NCBI RefSeq assembly: GCF_008001015.1
Contig: NZ_CP042862.1
Span: 2,046,001 to 2,110,000, forward strand
Source: Serinicoccus profundi
GTDB lineage: Bacteria; Actinomycetota; Actinomycetes; Actinomycetales; Dermatophilaceae
Length of the DNA: 64,000 nucleotides
Direction of reading: 5' to 3'
Shown here: positions 21,370 to 33,138 of the stretch, in pieces
Layout: each line of letters opens with the position of its first letter
How positions within the stretch are numbered: position 1 is the first letter of the stretch
Made by a program: the position numbers and the translations under genes
Notes under the pieces: generated by a model
What the model was told of the DNA's origin: nothing
The model's input: the letters and a program-made list of their open reading frames with translations, nothing else
Databases searched by the model: none

Positions 21370-21498
21370 GTTGAACTCGCTTTCTGCTTCTGTCGCGGTG
21401 GGCTCGGACGCGCCCTCGGAGGCTGATGGACGAGGTCGAGCCGACACGGGATGTGTCGTCTGCGAGACCAGTCCAGCACCAGGGCGAACCGACGCACC

Positions 21499-21528
21499 AG
21501 ACTACCGTGCGGGACGCCGTGGCTCCAA
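21499..21528 (-). promoter_or_regulatory. Promoter of rplU-rpmA-obg
   Basis: On the minus strand TTGGAG (21523-21528) and TAGTCT (21499-21504) form a -35/-10 pair with an 18-base spacer, directly after the RNase E/G stop. This leaves an rplU leader of about 120 bases. Confidence 0.5.
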
Positions 21529-21530
21529 AC

Positions 21531-24152
21531 TCAGGCCGACGAAGGCGCCGGGGTGGCGTCGTCATCGCCCGAGGCCGGCTCCTCGGCGCTGCTGTCCGGG
21601 GTCGGGGACCCCGTCTCGACCTCGCCGACGGGCGGCCCGGCCGGGGCGACGACGCGTCCGCGACGGCGACGCTTGGGCGCCGGCGCAGCGGGCTCCTCGA
21701 CGACCGGGACCGCCGGCGCCTGGACGCTCTCCGCGGGCGCCGCTGCCGGCTCGGCCTGCTCCACGACGGCCGTCTCCGGCTCGGCGGCGACCTCGGGCTG
21801 CGTCGTGACCGGGGCGTCGGCCACCTCGCCCGCGGCGGCACCGGCCGCCGCGTCGGCGACCTCAGAGGTCGCTCCCGCGCTCAGGGCAGCGGCGTGCGCC
21901 GCCGCGGCGATCTGTGCCGGGGTCGGGCCGGAGGGGTTGGGTGTCGGCAGGACGTTCTTGGGCTCGGAGCCCCCGTTGCCGGAGGCGGCGTTGCCGCCGC
22001 GCCCCTTGCCGCGCCGCTTGCCGCCGCCATTCCCGTTGCCGCTGCCGTTGCTCTCCTCGGCGTGGCGGACGACGGGCTCGGTCTGCACCACGACCCCGCG
22101 CCCGGAGCAGTGCACGCACGTCTCCGAGAAGACCTCGATGAGGCCCGAGCCGACCCGCTTGCGGGTCATCTGGACGAGCCCGAGCGAGGTGACCTCGGCC
22201 ACCTGGTGCTTGGTGCGGTCACGGCCCAGGCACTCCAGGAGCCGACGCACGACGAGGTCACGGTTGCTCTCCAGGACCATGTCGATGAAGTCGACGACGA
22301 TGATGCCGCCGATGTCGCGCAGCCGCAGCTGACGCACGATCTCCTCGGCCGCCTCGATGTTGTTCTTGGTGACCGTCTCCTCGAGGTTGCCCCCGGAGCC
22401 GGTGAACTTGCCGGTGTTGACGTCGACGACGGTCATCGCCTCGGTGCGGTCGATGACCAGCGATCCGCCCGAGGGCAGCCACACCTTGCGGTCCATCGCC
22501 TTGGCGATGGCCTCGTGGACGCGGTATGTCGTGAAGACGTCGGTCGTGCCGGTGGCCTTCTCGACCCGCTCGGCGAGGTCCGGGGCGACCTCGTCGATGT
22601 AGTGCTTGACCTCGTCCCAGGCCTTCTCCCCGGACACCACGAGCTTGGCGAAGTCCTCGTTGAAGACGTCCCGGATGACCCGCACCGTCATGTCCGGCTC
22701 CCCGTGGAGGAGGGAGGGCGCGTTGGCCGTCTTCGCCTTGGCCTCGATCCGCTCCCACATGGCGGTGAGCCGCTCGACGTCCGCCCGCAACTCGGCCTCC
22801 GAGGCTCCCTCGGCCGCGGTGCGGACGATGACGCCGGCGTCGCTGGGGACGACCTCCTTGAGGATCTTCTTGAGGCGGCTGCGCTCGGTGTCAGGGAGCT
22901 TGCGGGAGATGCCGGTCATGGAGTTGCCGGGGACGTAGACGAGGTAGCGGCCCGGCAGCGAGACCTGCGAGGTCAGCCGGGCACCCTTGTGACCGATGGG
23001 GTCCTTCGTCACCTGGACGAGGACCGACTCCCCCGACTTGAGGGCGTTCTCGATGCGCTTGGGCTGGTTGCCCTCCAGACCCGCGGCGTCCCAGTTGACC
23101 TCACCGGCGTACAGCACCGCGTTGCGGCCCTTGCCGATGTCGACGAAGGCCGCCTCCATGCTCGGCAGGACGTTCTGGACCCGCCCGAGGTAGACGTTGC
23201 CCACCATCGTGGACTGGGCCGACCGGGACACGTAGTGCTCGACGGGGACGCCGTCCTCCAGCACCGCGATCTGGGTGCGGTCCTCGAGCCCACGGACCAC
23301 CATCACCCGCTCGACGCTCTCGCGGCGGGCGAGGAACTCCGCCTCGGTGATGATCGTGCGTCGACGTCCGGCCTCGCGGCCCTCCCGCCGTCGCTGGCGC
23401 TTGGCCTCCAGGCGGGTCGACCCCTTGACCGAGGTGACCTCGTCCTTGGCCGAGCGCTCGGTGCCGCTGCGGGAGCGGCGACGCCGCCGCTTGGTGGTGC
23501 TCGAGGAGTCCGCGTCGCCGTCGGCGTCCTTCGCACTCTCCGCGCCTCCGGCCTGGGGCTCCTCCCCCTGGCCCTGCGCGGCCTCCCCGCCCTGCGGCTC
23601 GTTCCTGCTCGAGCCGGAGTCCTTGCCGCCGCCACCGCGACGTCGACGCGAGGAGCCCTGCGGCTTGTCCTGCGCCGTGGCGCCGTCGGAGGTCTCCGAC
23701 CCGCCCTGCTCCTCGGCCTCCTGCTCGGGGCCGTCCTCACCGCGGGTGCGGCGGCCCTTGCCGCCGCGGCGCCGCCGGCGCCGGCCACGCGCACCGTCGT
23801 CGTCCCCGTCGTCGTCAGACGCCGCCGGGCCCTGGGTGTCGTCGGTCTCCGGCTCGACCTCGGGGGCCGGAGCCGGCGCGGTGGAGGCGGACGTCGCACG
23901 CCGCGACCGGCGCTTGGGCAGGTCCGTGAGGTCGGGGGCCTGGAAGACCAGACCGAAGGAGGGCTGCGGGGCGGCGGGGGCGGGCTCGTCCGCCGGCTCC
24001 TCGACCTCCTGCTCCTCCTCGGGCTCCTGCGTCTCGTCGGCGGGGGCGTCGTGGGTGTCCGGCCCCGGCACCTGCTCGGTGCTGCCGGTGCCCTGCTCGG
24101 TGGTCGAGGTCAGGGTCTCGTCCGCTTCTGCGGAGGTGCGCTCGTCAGACAC
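21531..24152 (-). CDS. rne: Ribonuclease E/G
   Basis: Endoribonuclease for rRNA processing and mRNA decay, 873 residues from GTG 24152 (GGAAGGA upstream). The layout is the actinobacterial one. There is a disordered N-terminal region of about 280 residues with acidic and Arg-rich blocks ([22 protein letters not shown]). The catalytic core (about 285-690) then has an S1 domain (GNVYLGRVQNVLPSMEAAFVDIGKGRNAVLY) and DNase I-like segments with the metal-binding Asp in TVVDVNTGKFTG and IIVVDFIDM. The CVHC zinc-link is near 677, and a Pro/Ala-rich tail follows. Flanking disordered regions probably bind RNA or partners. Confidence 0.94.
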   Translation of the reverse strand: MSDERTSAEADETLTSTTEQGTGSTEQVPGPDTHDAPADETQEPEEEQEVEEPADEPAPAAPQPSFGLVFQAPDLTDLPKRRSRRATSASTAPAPAPEVEPETDDTQGPAASDDDGDDDGARGRRRRRRGGKGRRTRGEDGPEQEAEEQGGSETSDGATAQDKPQGSSRRRRGGGGKDSGSSRNEPQGGEAAQGQGEEPQAGGAESAKDADGDADSSSTTKRRRRRSRSGTERSAKDEVTSVKGSTRLEAKRQRRREGREAGRRRTIITEAEFLARRESVERVMVVRGLEDRTQIAVLEDGVPVEHYVSRSAQSTMVGNVYLGRVQNVLPSMEAAFVDIGKGRNAVLYAGEVNWDAAGLEGNQPKRIENALKSGESVLVQVTKDPIGHKGARLTSQVSLPGRYLVYVPGNSMTGISRKLPDTERSRLKKILKEVVPSDAGVIVRTAAEGASEAELRADVERLTAMWERIEAKAKTANAPSLLHGEPDMTVRVIRDVFNEDFAKLVVSGEKAWDEVKHYIDEVAPDLAERVEKATGTTDVFTTYRVHEAIAKAMDRKVWLPSGGSLVIDRTEAMTVVDVNTGKFTGSGGNLEETVTKNNIEAAEEIVRQLRLRDIGGIIVVDFIDMVLESNRDLVVRRLLECLGRDRTKHQVAEVTSLGLVQMTRKRVGSGLIEVFSETCVHCSGRGVVVQTEPVVRHAEESNGSGNGNGGGKRRGKGRGGNAASGNGGSEPKNVLPTPNPSGPTPAQIAAAAHAAALSAGATSEVADAAAGAAAGEVADAPVTTQPEVAAEPETAVVEQAEPAAAPAESVQAPAVPVVEEPAAPAPKRRRRGRVVAPAGPPVGEVETGSPTPDSSAEEPASGDDDATPAPSSA

Positions 24153-24552
24153 GTGGTGTCCTTCCAGGTCGCGCGGTGCGAGTCCACACCCAGGCGCCAA
24201 GGCCTCCTGCCCGCGCGACGCGGGTGCTGTGTCGTCGTGGCCGGCCGGCCGCGACGGAAGTCGTCCTGTGTCACCGGCTGCGGCTCGCGCGCTCGCGCGG
24301 CACCGGTTCCGGCGCGGTGCCAGCTGTCGACGCGATGGTCCTCATCGCCGCCGCGTCCTGCGTGCTGACCTGGAGGGCCGCACCGCTAGGGCTCGCACCG
24401 GGCCGCGCGGCGGTGTGTGGGACGTCGCTCGACCGCTACGCAGTATCGCACATGCGGCGGCCCCGACGGCATACGACGCCGGCCGCGCCACGCCGCTCCC
24501 GGGTGCCTGCTCCACCGGCCGACCAGATGACAGGACACGCGCTCCTTGACGG
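24153..24552. other. Intergenic region between rne and serC
   Basis: About 400 bases between divergent genes with no convincing protein or RNA gene. It should hold the rne promoter and leader; the only AT-leaning patch is around 24436-24458. The serC -10 element is at its right edge. One GGCATAC word occurs at 24469. Confidence 0.5.
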
Positions 24553-26884: not shown

Positions 26885-28222
26885 ATGTCGCACGTCCGTC
26901 ATCCCTCCGGCGAGGGTTGAGTCCCGATCCAGTCGCTGGCGATCGCCTACCGCGCGAGCCATGAGGCGATCCCGCTCTTCGGGATCTACGCCCTGCTCTT
27001 CGCCGACCGGGGTCTGAGCACGACCCAGATCTCGGTGCTGCTCGCCGTGTGGTCCGCGAGCGCCTTCCTGCTCGAGGTGCCCTCCGGCGCCTGGGCGGAC
27101 CTGCTGGACCGGCGGCGACTGCTCATCGCCTCGGGCCTGGTCTACGCCTCGGCCTTCGGGGTGTGGCTGGCCTGGCCGACCTTCTGGGGCTTCCTGCTCG
27201 GCTTCGTCCTGTGGTCGTTGTCCGATGCGATGCACTCCGGCACGTGGGAGGCCTACCTCTTCGACCAGCTCCGGGCGCGTGGGGTCAACGCGCGGTATGC
27301 CCAGGTCAAGGCGCGGTCCGAGAGCGTGGCGCTGCTCGTGATGGCCGGCGCGATCGCGGCGGCCGCACCGCTGCACCAGGCGGGCGGCTACGCCCTCGTG
27401 GGAGCGCTCAGCCTGGGTGTCGCCGTCGTCCACGTCGGCGTAGCCCTGCGGCTCCCACCGCCCGTGCCGCACGGCATACCCCCGGAGGAGGCCCGCGCCG
27501 ATGCCCATCCCACCTCGCCCCGCGTGGTGACACCGCCAGCCGAGCCGGCCACCGCCGAGGAGGTCGGCCACCCGAAGGGCTCGCCGGGCCTGCGCGCCTG
27601 GGGGCGCACCCTGCGCGCGGGCCTCGACCTGGCCCGGGCCCGGGGTCCGGTGCGACGGGTCCTGGTGGGATACGCCGCGATCGTCACCCTGGTCGGCTTC
27701 GACGAGTACTTCCCGCTCGTCCTCGCCGAGGATGGCTCCTCGGTCGGGCGGGTCGCGCTCGTCATGGCCGGGATCGTGCTGCTCGAGGCGCTCGGCACGG
27801 CCCTCAGCGACCGTGTGGCGGTGCTGACCGGCTGGCGGCACGCGGCACTGGTGGTGACGGCCGGAGTGCTGCTCGGCGTGGGTGCGTGGGGTGCGGGGTG
27901 GTCCGGCGCGCTCGCGCTGGGCATCGGGTATGCCGTGGCGAGCAGCCTCTACCTCGCCGACGACGCGCGCCTTCAGCACTCCCTGGCCGAGGACAGCCGG
28001 ACCCGGGCGACGGTGACCTCGGTGGCGAGCGTCGCGGGCGAGCTCGGCTTCCTCGTCACGTTGGCGGCGGTGGGGCTGCTCACCCTGCACCACGACCTCA
28101 CCTCGGTGATGACCTGGACCGTCCTGGCCCTCACCCTGCCGGCGGCGGCCCTCGCCTGGCGCCTTCCCGCGGGTGCGCCCCCCACCACCGCCTCGGACCA
28201 CCCGCCCGCCGAGGACCTCTAG
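26885..28222 (+). CDS. MFS transporter with in-frame TGA near its N-terminus
   Basis: A 12-helix major facilitator protein of unknown substrate; SAFLLEVPSGAWADLLDRRRLL carries the loop 2-3 MFS signature. From the ATG at 26885 the frame reads MSHVRHPSGEG and then meets TGA at 26918-26920. The same frame then continues without stop into the first membrane helix (AIPLFGIYALLF) and the rest. No ATG, GTG or TTG occurs in frame between the TGA and GTG 27035, which would remove helix 1. The gene is therefore either nonsense-mutated, carries a base error, or uses an unusual start. Its stop overlaps the convergent regulator remnant by four bases. Confidence 0.75.
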
Positions 28223-28775
28223 GCCCGCAGCAGGGCCTCGGCGGTGTCGTGGGTGGTGACCAGGCCGTTGACGAGGTCGCCCGTCATGGCCGCGCGCAGG
28301 GCCGCCACCTTGCCCACGCCGTGAGCGACGGCGATCACCCGCGCGATGCCGCGCAGCTGGTGGGGGGAGAGCGCGATGAGTCGCTCGGAGAGGCAGGTGT
28401 CGACGAGCTGGCCCTGCTCGTCGAAGCAGGCGCCGACGGACTCCCCGATGACGCCCGCCTCCGCCACCAGACGGCGGCACTCGGGGTCCACCGCGTCGTA
28501 GATGGTCGACTGGCCGGGCTCCCAGGCCCCCACCCCCACCATGGCGACGGTGACCGTGCTCGCCGCCGCGAGCGTCCCGCTGACCGCCGGGTCCCGGCGC
28601 ACGGCCTCGGCCCCGGCCGCGTCGGGCATGACGAGCGGGGCGAAGAACACCTGGCGCCCTCCCCCGGACATCCGGCCCGCGCGGCGCACGAGGTCGACCG
28701 AGCTGGAGTCCTCGCTGATCCCTGCCAGGGCACCGCTGAGCTGCACGATCTCGACCGGTGGCAGCGACTCCAGCG
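28219..28775 (-). pseudogene. SorC/DeoR-type sugar-binding regulator, 5' end deleted
   Basis: About 185 C-terminal residues of a SorC-family regulator, from LESLPPVEIVQLSGALAG to the C-terminus LVTTHDTAEALLRA. The sugar-phosphate-binding core is clear (SSSVDLVRRAGRMSGGG, VGVGAWEPGQSTIYDAV, ERLIALSPHQLRGIARVIAVAHG). The N-terminal helix-turn-helix and roughly the first 120-130 residues are missing. Upstream of about 28775 the minus-strand frame is only the antisense of the xylulokinase gene. It was probably the repressor of the adjacent sugar kinase and cannot bind DNA in this form. Confidence 0.75.
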
Positions 28776-28777
28776 CA

Positions 28778-30115
28778 ACCGGTGAGGTGGTCCGCGAGGG
28801 CCGGGGGGCACACCCCAACGGCACCGAGGTCGACCCGGAGCACTGGTGGACCGCCTTCGAGGAGGCCAGCTCCGGTGATCTCCTGGACGGCGTGCAGGCC
28901 CTCGCGGTCGGTGGGCAGCAGCACGGCATGGTGCTCCTCGACGAGGCCGACGAGGTGGTGCGCCCGGCCCTGCTGTGGAACGACACGCGCTCGGCGCAGG
29001 CCGCCACGGACCTGGTGAGCGAGCTCGGCGGCGCGCAGGCCTGGGCCGACCGGGTCGGCGTGGTCCCGCTGGCGGCCATCACCGTGAGCAAGCTGCGCTG
29101 GAGCGCCGAGCACGAGCCCGAGCAGGTGGAGCGGGCGGCCACCTGCGTGCTCCCGCACGACTGGTTGACCGGTCAGATCGCGCGCCGCCTGGGCGGCGGG
29201 GCGCAGGGCTGGGTCACCGACCGTGGCGACGCCTCCGGCACGGGCTACTTCGACGCCGCGACCGGCGACTACGACCGGGAGCTGCTGCGTCTCGCGGTCA
29301 GCCGCGACCTCGAGCTGCCGACGGTCCTCGGACCCCATGACGAGGCGGGGCGGACCGGCTCCGGGATGGTGCTCGGGCCCGGCACCGGCGACAACGCCGC
29401 GGCGGCCCTGGGTCTGGGCCTGTCCGCCGGTGACGTCGTCATGTCGCTCGGGACGAGCGGTACCGCATTCGCCCGGCACGGCTCCCCCAGCCACGACGCC
29501 AACGGCGAGGTGGCGTCGTATGCCGATGCCACCGGCGCCTTCCTCCCGCTCGTGTGCACGCTCAACGCGGCGCGGGTCCTCACCGCCGGTGCGCAGGTGC
29601 TGGGCACCGACCTCGCGGGCCTGGAGGAGCTGGCGCTGCAGGCCGAGCCCGGTGCCGGCGGCCTGACCCTGCTCCCCTACCTCGACGGTGAGCGCACCCC
29701 GAACCTCCCCGACGCCACCGGCACCCTGTCCGGGCTCACCCGCGACAACCTGACCCCGGCCAACCTCGCCCGCGCCATGGTCGAGGGCATGATCCTCGGC
29801 GTGGGAGCAGGGGTCGACTCCCTGCGGCGCGAGGGCGTCGAGGTCGAGCGGGTGCACCTCATCGGTGGTGCGGTGGCCTCCCGCGCCGTCCGGGAGATCG
29901 CGGCCGATCTCCTCGGGGTGCCCGTGGTGATCCCGGCGGCAGGCGAGTACGTCGCGCTGGGGGCCGCCCGCCAGGCGGCGTGGACCCTACGCGGCGGCGA
30001 CCTGCCGCAGTGGCCGGTGCCGGTGTCGGCGCAGCTCGAGGCCCAGCCCTCGGAGCAGGCCCGGAAGGTCAGGGAGCGCTACCCGGACCTGCTCGAGACC
30101 GTCCACGGTCGCTGA
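28778..30115 (+). pseudogene. xylB: Xylulokinase (FGGY family), 5' end deleted
   Basis: Xylulokinase body of about 445 residues. Recognisable parts are GEVVREGRGAHPNGTEVDPEHWW, VGGQQHGMVLLDEADEVVRPALLWNDTRS, DWLTGQIARRLGG, MSLGTSGTAFARHG and PYLDGERTPNLPDATGTLSGL. The first 20-25 residues, which in this family hold the GVDSSTQS phosphate-binding strand, are absent. Upstream codons in this frame are antisense to the regulator remnant. GTG 28787 could start a shortened protein, but it would lack part of the ATP site. Head-to-head fusion with the truncated regulator suggests one deletion removed both 5' ends and the promoter between them. Confidence 0.75.
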
Positions 30116-30128
30116 CGCACATCGGCCC

Positions 30129-31967
30129 TCAGTCGGTGTAGAAGCGGTCCAGCTCGTCCTTGTATTTCGCCGTCACGGCCCGCCGCTTGAGCTTCATGCT
30201 CGGCGTGAGGTCGCCCTCCTCGATCGACAGGTCATGGTCGAGGATGTGGAACTGCTTGACCTGCTCGTGGCGTGCCAGCTGCTGGTTGAGCTGGTCGAGG
30301 TAGCCCTGCACCATCTCCCGGGCGGCGTCGGAGGTGACGATCTGCGCGTAGCTGTCACCCGCCATACCGTTCTTGGCGCCCCACGCCGTGATGGCGTCCG
30401 GGTCGAGGGTGATGAGCGCGGAGACGAAGTTGCGGCCGTCGCCCTCGACGATGAGCTGGCTGGCGTAGGGGCAGATGCCCTTGAAGAGCGACTCGATGCG
30501 CGAGGGCGCGACATACTTGCCGCCGGAGGTCTTGAAGAGATCCTTCTTGCGGTCGGTGATCCGGACGTAGCCGTCCTCGTCGATCTCAGCGATGTCTCCG
30601 GTCGCGAGCCAGCCGTCCTGGAGGGCCTCGGCGCTCGCCTCGTCGTTCTGGTGGTACCCGGTCATGATGCCGGGCCCCCGCATGAGCAGCTCGCCGTCCT
30701 CGGCGAGGCGCACCTCGGTGCCGGGCAGCGGCCACCCCACCGTACCGATCTTGTTGACCCCGGCCTTGGGCCGGTTGACGATCGAGGCGGCGCTGGACTC
30801 GGTGAGGCCGTAGCCCTCGATGATCGTCAGCCCCATCGCGTCGAACCACCGGGCGATGTCGTGGTTGAGCGCCGCGGAGCCGGAGATGAAGAACCGGATC
30901 CGGCCCCCGAAGCGCTCTCGGATCTTGGAGAGCACGAGCTTGTCGGCGAGCGCGTGCTGCGCCTTGAGCAGACCGCCGGGCTCCCTGCCCGAGGCACGGA
31001 TCTCGGCGACCTGGGTGCCGACACCGCTGGCCCACCCGAAGAGCTTCTCCTTGACCCCGCCCTCGTCGGCCATCATCGTCGTGATCCGGCCGTAGGCCTT
31101 CTCGAAGATGCGGGGCGCGGCTCCCATGAAGGTCGGCCTGACCACCGCGAGGTTCTCGACGATCTTGTCGACGCGCCCGTCGACCGCGGTCGGGAAGCCC
31201 ATCTGCAGGGGCAGCACGAGCAGGCACTTGCCGAAGACGTGGGCCAGGGGCAGCCAGAGGTACTGCAGGTCCTCGGGGCCCAGCAGGTGGACCGCGTCGA
31301 CCCCGGCACCCTCGTAGGTCCACGCGGAGTGCGGGAGCCGCACGCCCTTGGGCCGACCGGTCGTCCCGGAGGTGTAGATGATCGTCGCGAGGTGCTCGGG
31401 GGTGAGCGCGTCGATCCGGGCGTCCACGACCCCCGGCTCGGCCTGCATCCGCCGGCGCCCGAGCTCCTCCAGCTCGGCGAGCGTGATGACGTCGCCGCCG
31501 TCACCGGTCCCGTCGATGACGACGATCTTGAGCACCGCGCCGAGCTCGGAGCGGTGCTCGAGCACCTTGGCGACCTGCTCGTCGTCCTCGGCCACGACCA
31601 CGCGGCTCCCGGAGTCGGTGATGATGAAGGCGACGTCGTCGGAGAGCGTCGTGGGGTAGATGGTGGTCGTGGCGGCCCCGGCACACATCACCGCGAGGTC
31701 GACCAGCACCCACTCGATGCGGGTCGAGCACGCCAGGGCCACCCGCTCCTCGGGCTGCACCCCGAGCTCGATGAGACCGGCCGCCATGGCGTAGGCACGC
31801 TCCCCCGTCTGGGCCCAGGAGAGGACCGGCCACTCCTCGCCCTCGGGGTAGAGGAAGGCGTCGGTGTCGGGGGTCGCGACGACACGGTCCCGGAAGAGGT
31901 GTCCCACGCTCGGGACGCGGTTCTCGATGAGCGCGAGGTCGGGCGTCTCGTCGGCAAGGCGGGCCAT
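30129..31967 (-). CDS. Long-chain fatty acid-CoA ligase (AMP-forming)
   Basis: A 612-residue acyl-CoA synthetase similar to FadD15 types. The ATG at 31967 has AGGAG upstream; the longer frame is not supported. AMP-binding motifs: TIIYTSGTTGRPKGV (P-loop), TIIEGYGLTESSAASIV, DGWLATGDIAEIDEDGYVRITDRKKDLFKTSGGKYV and the C-terminal lysine region MKLKRRAVTAKYKDEL. It activates fatty acids for lipid synthesis or degradation. It follows the rodA-type gene by 34 bases on the same strand. Confidence 0.93.
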   Translation of the reverse strand: MARLADETPDLALIENRVPSVGHLFRDRVVATPDTDAFLYPEGEEWPVLSWAQTGERAYAMAAGLIELGVQPEERVALACSTRIEWVLVDLAVMCAGAATTTIYPTTLSDDVAFIITDSGSRVVVAEDDEQVAKVLEHRSELGAVLKIVVIDGTGDGGDVITLAELEELGRRRMQAEPGVVDARIDALTPEHLATIIYTSGTTGRPKGVRLPHSAWTYEGAGVDAVHLLGPEDLQYLWLPLAHVFGKCLLVLPLQMGFPTAVDGRVDKIVENLAVVRPTFMGAAPRIFEKAYGRITTMMADEGGVKEKLFGWASGVGTQVAEIRASGREPGGLLKAQHALADKLVLSKIRERFGGRIRFFISGSAALNHDIARWFDAMGLTIIEGYGLTESSAASIVNRPKAGVNKIGTVGWPLPGTEVRLAEDGELLMRGPGIMTGYHQNDEASAEALQDGWLATGDIAEIDEDGYVRITDRKKDLFKTSGGKYVAPSRIESLFKGICPYASQLIVEGDGRNFVSALITLDPDAITAWGAKNGMAGDSYAQIVTSDAAREMVQGYLDQLNQQLARHEQVKQFHILDHDLSIEEGDLTPSMKLKRRAVTAKYKDELDRFYTD

Positions 31968-32001
31968 GGCAACTCCTGTGTCGGATGGTCCTACAGAGTG
32001 C

Positions 32002-33138
32002 TCATCTTGGCAGGTTCGGCCGCGCCCTCCAAGAGGAACGCGCCGCACCGTCCCGCCCGCTGGCGCACGCCAGCAGGCCGAGGGCCAGCCAGCACGCCAA
32101 CATCGAGGATCCGCCGTAGGACAGGAAGGGCAGCGGGAGGCCGGTGACCGGCATCAGCCCGAGGTTCATCCCGACGTTCTCGAAGATCTGGAAGCCGAAC
32201 CACGAGGCCACGCCGACCGCCAGCAGCCGGCCGAAGGGATCCTCGCAGCGCAGCGCGACGATCAGGCCTCGCACGACGAGGAAACCGAGGAGCACGAGCA
32301 GACCGGAGGCACCGACGAAGCCCAGCTCCTCACCGGCCACGGAGAAGATGAAGTCGGTGTACTGGTAGGGGATGAACCCTCCCTGGGTCTGCGGGCCCTC
32401 GCCGAGGCCGGTCCCCGACCAGCCGCCCGAGCCGATCGCCAGGCGGGCCTGGTGCGTCTGGTAGCCGATGCCCTCCGGGTCCAGGCCGGGGTCGCGGAAG
32501 GCGAGCAGCCGGTCGACCTGGTAGGGGTCGAGCAGCGGGATGCGGACGGCGGCCACGACGACGGCGCAGACCGCGACCACCGCGGTGGCCGTCCACCGCC
32601 ACGACGCCCCGGAGGTCGCCACGACGACGAGGGTGAGCACCCCGAGCACGAGCCCGCTGCCCAGGTCGGGCTGCAGCATGATGAGGCCGATCGGCACCCC
32701 GGCGAGGCACCAGGCCGGCAGGACGTCCCGCCACCCGGGCCGGGCGTAGGGGTCGCGGCCCTCGGCGAGGATCATCGCCAGCCCGACGACCAGGCCGATC
32801 TTGGCGAGCTCGGCTGGCTGCAGCGAGAACCCGCCGGGCAGGAACAGCCAGGACCTCGACCCGTTGACGGTCTGCCCCAGGGGCGTGAGCACCAGGACGA
32901 GGCCGGCGAGCCCCAGGAGGTAGACCCACGGGGCCGCGGCCCGCAGCCACCGCACGTCGAGACAGATGACCGCCAGCCCGAGGACGAGACCGATGGCGGT
33001 GTTGACCAGGTGTCGGACCGCGAGGGCGGGACCGGCCCACTCGTGGGTCGCCGACCAGATGAGGACCGCCCCGACGAGGCTCAGGCCGAGTCCGGCGACG
33101 AAGGGCGCCCAGTCCGTGCGCAGGAGTCGCTCGCGCAC
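32002..33138 (-). CDS. rodA: FtsW/RodA/SpoVE-family peptidoglycan glycosyltransferase
   Basis: A 378-residue SEDS protein with about ten transmembrane helices, starting at GTG 33138. Family motifs are NGSRSWLFLPGGFSLQPAELAKIGLV, QPDLGSGLVLG, GSGGWSGTGLGEGPQTQGGFIPYQYTDFIFSVAGEELGFVG and MPVTGLPLPFLSYGGSSML. The DFIFSVAGEE form favours RodA over FtsW. SEDS proteins polymerise lipid II with a class B penicillin-binding protein, but none is encoded beside it. It starts seven bases after ribF. Confidence 0.9.
   Translation of the reverse strand: MRERLLRTDWAPFVAGLGLSLVGAVLIWSATHEWAGPALAVRHLVNTAIGLVLGLAVICLDVRWLRAAAPWVYLLGLAGLVLVLTPLGQTVNGSRSWLFLPGGFSLQPAELAKIGLVVGLAMILAEGRDPYARPGWRDVLPAWCLAGVPIGLIMLQPDLGSGLVLGVLTLVVVATSGASWRWTATAVVAVCAVVVAAVRIPLLDPYQVDRLLAFRDPGLDPEGIGYQTHQARLAIGSGGWSGTGLGEGPQTQGGFIPYQYTDFIFSVAGEELGFVGASGLLVLLGFLVVRGLIVALRCEDPFGRLLAVGVASWFGFQIFENVGMNLGLMPVTGLPLPFLSYGGSSMLACWLALGLLACASGRDGAARSSWRARPNLPR

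Follow-up and report, generated by a model that had tools for sequence, protein, structure and literature searches.

Head-to-head remnants of a SorC/LsrR-type regulator and a xylulokinase in Serinicoccus profundi, very likely left by a single 5.4-kb deletion of a putative polyol operon

The closest described systems to this locus are the mtlE-Z operon of Pseudomonas fluorescens, a mannitol/arabitol/glucitol operon (PMC4514859), and the smo locus of Sinorhizobium meliloti, where MtlK acts on mannitol and D-arabitol and smoC represses the operon (PMC10433430). In Serinicoccus profundi we analysed a window of 64,000 nucleotides (G000:C1:2046001-2110000), from a genome that consists of one contig of 3.48 Mb and is 100% complete. 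A sequence-only reading of this window had described an N-terminally truncated regulator on the minus strand and a xylulokinase, likewise truncated, on the plus strand, and this description is borne out by domain matches that start late in both (profile position 75 of PF04198, 37 of PF00370 and 34 of TIGR01312).

The regulator remnant (28219..28776, minus strand) was delimited by its domain match and by sibling alignment. The match of the open reading frame to PF04198 (Sugar-bind; 128.6 bits) does not begin until profile position 75 and continues to the last one, 257, and the remnant keeps 185 residues from the C-terminal side of the sugar-binding domain. It aligns with 85% identity to residues 126-308 of an intact sibling protein; residues 1-125 of the ~311-residue intact regulator are gone, including the helix-turn-helix DNA-binding part. 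With respect to membership of the SorC/LsrR family, the C-terminal PF04198 domain is present and the N-terminal helix-turn-helix, found in the siblings, is absent. The intact sibling regulator matches the solved structures of SorC (2w48) and LsrR (4l5i) across nearly its full length, whereas the window copy corresponds to their C-terminal part only, without the helix-turn-helix.

The xylulokinase remnant (28778..30115, plus strand; FGGY family) is 445 residues long and 86% identical to intact sibling kinases. Its match to TIGR01312 (XylB, 481 positions) does not start until position 34, and that to FGGY_N (PF00370) not until profile position 37. Roughly 27 N-terminal residues have been lost, and with them the start codon and the phosphate-binding DTSTQS loop. 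The remnant scores 368 bits against TIGR01312, under the curated cut-off of 380.25, compared with 401.6 for an intact sibling, which lies above it. The solved xylulose kinase 3i8b is matched nearly end to end by the intact sibling kinase (E 9e-120) and shares the DTSTQS loop with the siblings, in contrast to the window copy, which lacks the residues that carry it. The missing parts had been predicted to be a helix-turn-helix end and a GVDSSTQS-like loop, and the siblings agree: one of them reads GISRFKVARLLDLA at the missing regulator end, and the siblings have GVDTSTQS at the GVDxSTQS loop, which is absent in the window. Kinase homologues with 81-86% identity occur in eight genomes of the same genus, and regulator homologues with 80-85% identity occur in the same eight siblings. 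Named matches of the kinase, also 81-86% identical, come from S. sediminis, S. kebangsaanensis and an uncultured Serinicoccus. A search of a plasmid collection returned no record with the regulator-kinase pair, only xylulokinases of ~65-78% nucleotide identity. Elsewhere in the genome, where the presence of xylA had been raised as a question, no xylose isomerase was found, and another kinase of 499 residues (L002), considered as a replacement, scores 173 bits to XylB, far under the cut-off, which does not identify it as a xylulokinase. Automatic annotation pipelines could list a functional xylulokinase for this genome, which calls for caution.

We next mapped the genes in ~19 kb around the locus in each of the siblings, eight species in or near Serinicoccus. 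In all eight, the regulator and kinase genes have the flanking genes that they have in the window: on the left a transporter-like, MFS-like membrane protein (27035..28222, plus strand, from the listed ORF start; the true start may be further upstream) and on the right a fadD-like, AMP-forming long-chain acyl-CoA synthetase (30129..32048, minus strand; 88-92% identity across the eight), both placed by synteny and named from reading the sequence. The regulator remnant is convergent with the MFS-like gene and the kinase remnant with the fadD-like gene; because the remnants abut convergent neighbours, no polar effect of the operon loss would be expected from the map. Further upstream in the window, a 980-residue antisense frame (21426-24368, plus strand) shadows a ribonuclease E/G-like ORF (21531-24200, minus strand) and is probably an artefact of GC-rich sequence.

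Alignment to intact divergent relatives, which had been put forward as a check, showed a complete operon between the same neighbours in seven of the eight siblings (G011, G017, G028, G029, G030, G007 and G026). The order is serA, the MFS-like gene, the regulator (minus strand), a solute-binding protein (PF01547), two ABC permeases (PF00528), a mannitol-dehydrogenase-family enzyme (PF01232, PF08125), xylulokinase and fadD (minus strand), and regulator and kinase stand 5.35-5.40 kb apart. The nearest solved structures to the sibling dehydrogenase are the mannitol 2-dehydrogenases 7rk4 and 1lj8, and it scores 340.7 bits against the DalD model, under its cut-off of 600. In G026, the binding-protein gene (G026:C31:156763-158160, within L069) was matched with two in-frame TGA codons in the aligned stretch, possibly further decay or a match that crosses a frame change.

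The transporter genes and the mannitol-dehydrogenase-family gene adjoining xylulokinase are present in the seven syntenic siblings and absent from the window. Relocation within the chromosome was rejected for the dehydrogenase and the binding protein by genome searches: the dehydrogenase has no match elsewhere in the complete single-contig genome, and the only relative of the binding protein there is 27% identical. Insertion in the relatives was also rejected, as it would not complete the N-termini of two conserved genes in several lineages. Between the breakpoints, the seven intact siblings span 5352 to 5403 bases. This stretch encodes 125 residues of the regulator and ~27 of the kinase, and holds the divergent promoter region and four complete genes (the solute-binding protein, the two permeases and the polyol dehydrogenase). 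We therefore consider it very likely that one deletion of ~5.4 kb took nearly the whole operon and left the 3′ parts of regulator and kinase head to head. The eight syntenic siblings thus support the earlier proposal of one deletion that took away both 5′ ends together with the intervening promoter region, but its size had been underestimated at several hundred bases, and the loss of four whole genes comes on top. The deletion is known from one genome of the species.

The junction could be mapped to a single base. In a DNA search of 31 genomes of the genus with positions 28600-28960 as query, left and right matches were separate in the siblings, and in the five with the best left match (G011, G017, G028, G029 and G030) the left match ended at 28776 and the right one started at 28778. 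Both joins are thus one point, within a few bases of the position near 28775 given by the earlier reading. Among the 31 genomes, no match spans the junction except in this genome itself. The junction base is an A (28777..28777); the corresponding left-side base is A in G007, G021 and G026 and G in the other five siblings, and the A may be either the last retained left base or a 1-base filler.

The sequence-only reading had also pointed to a 7-base repeat, ACCGGTG, as the possible mediator of the deletion. Both copies do exist (28754-28760 and 28778-28784, plus strand), 24 bases apart with 17 bases between them, but the rest of the proposal fails. A repeat-mediated deletion leaves a single copy of the repeat at the join, whereas here both persist; the left copy belongs to the coding sequence of the surviving regulator part, whose homology runs 16 bases past it to the join at 28776. 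Such pairs are also no more frequent than chance, with 13 identical 7-mers within 30 bases of each other in 1.9 kb versus ~16 in shuffled sequence. Recombination between the two copies is therefore exceedingly improbable, and the pair (28754..28784) is coincidental rather than a breakpoint repeat.

Sibling alignments revealed no repeat common to both breakpoints, with at most one base unassigned. This also bears on assembly collapse, in which the strain would still carry the missing segment and the assembly would have dropped it at the junction. Collapse needs a repeat, which the breakpoints do not share, and the lost dehydrogenase is nowhere in an assembly that forms one complete contig, so we regard this explanation as very improbable. 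A Ku homologue over the Pfam cut-off is encoded at G000:C1:536708-537259, inside a 717-residue open frame (L112), and the genome may be capable of non-homologous end joining (NHEJ). Given this gene and the lack of a breakpoint repeat, an illegitimate, NHEJ-like join is a reasonable, if unproven, cause of the deletion.

Neither remnant shows decay. Over 443 kinase and 183 regulator codons there are no stops, at a branch dS of ~0.3, and we found no frameshifts, no raised dN/dS and no measurable nonsynonymous excess. On its own branch, dN/dS was 0.124 (0.083-0.181) for the kinase remnant and 0.187 (0.092-0.347) for the regulator remnant, compared with 0.135 and 0.192 for the intact genes of sibling G017. 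Neutral evolution beyond about a tenth of the branch should have been visible, and the deletion is therefore probably recent relative to the split from the siblings; continued constraint on the remnants is a less likely explanation.

That the truncated genes are in use, as a sugar sensor lacking its DNA-binding domain and a kinase with an altered N-terminus, fits with the absence of relaxed constraint in either remnant and with both frames being open across the junction. Altered products would perhaps begin at upstream in-frame codons, in ORFs of 307 and 537 residues that each cross the opposite remnant in antisense. These extensions, however, are sequence of neither protein, have no Pfam match and are typical of GC-rich antisense frames, and the kinase lacks its start and the DTSTQS loop, which is conserved in the siblings and in 3i8b. 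A search for consensus promoters found none, which is weak evidence in this phylum. The source of xylulose is also gone, with neither a homologue of the operon dehydrogenase nor a xylose isomerase in the genome. We consider such use highly unlikely, and give equally little credence to the idea that the sugar-binding domain and the kinase body, both without relaxed constraint, were retained in a new function once the rest of the operon had gone.

Together, these results suggest a simple history, beginning with the divergent polyol-catabolic unit seen in the siblings, a SorC/LsrR regulator opposite an operon of binding protein, two permeases, mannitol/arabitol-type dehydrogenase and xylulokinase. 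One illegitimate deletion of ~5.4 kb, with its ends inside regulator and kinase, removed everything between, and end joining of the NHEJ kind would have sealed the break. The regulator is left without its DNA-binding domain, the kinase has neither its start codon nor its phosphate-binding loop, and the promoter region is gone; since all of these are missing, both remnants are very probably dead. The polyol of this operon, probably D-arabitol and/or mannitol, should no longer be usable by the strain. The operon seems dispensable in the group, since a sister species (G021) independently lost its transporter part. There, a deletion has taken ~3.1 kb by comparison with G007: the solute-binding protein gene stops after 48 bases, permease 1 is absent and permease 2 resumes at codon ~260. 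Regulator, dehydrogenase and kinase are kept, and the join (around 8319-8326 of L067, G021:C1:2029300-2048000) has six unassigned bases. The S. profundi case is one of ordinary gene loss and pseudogenisation, of interest as a clean, apparently recent operon loss with a base-mapped junction in a Ku-bearing actinobacterium.

A literature search on polyol use in Serinicoccus found no paper, and the substrate is suggested by how the sibling operon compares with P. fluorescens mtl (PMC4514859) and S. meliloti smo (PMC10433430). On these grounds, the most likely function of the intact operon is uptake and oxidation of D-arabitol, mannitol or a comparable polyol, and the xylulokinase most likely serves the D-arabitol branch. 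Like the intact sibling operon, P. fluorescens mtlE-Z contains a binding protein, two permeases, a mannitol dehydrogenase and a xylulose kinase, but between regulator and kinase the siblings carry neither an ATPase gene nor one for a fructokinase, and their adjacent SorC/LsrR-type regulator contrasts with the distant AraC/XylS-type MtlR (PMC4514859). The S. meliloti smo locus resembles the operon in its ABC polyol transporter, its polyol dehydrogenase and the regulator gene within the locus; it differs in that smoK supplies an ATPase and smoS a further dehydrogenase (PMC10433430), while the window has lost both transporter and dehydrogenase. Compared with the P. fluorescens mtl operon, the window holds remnants only.
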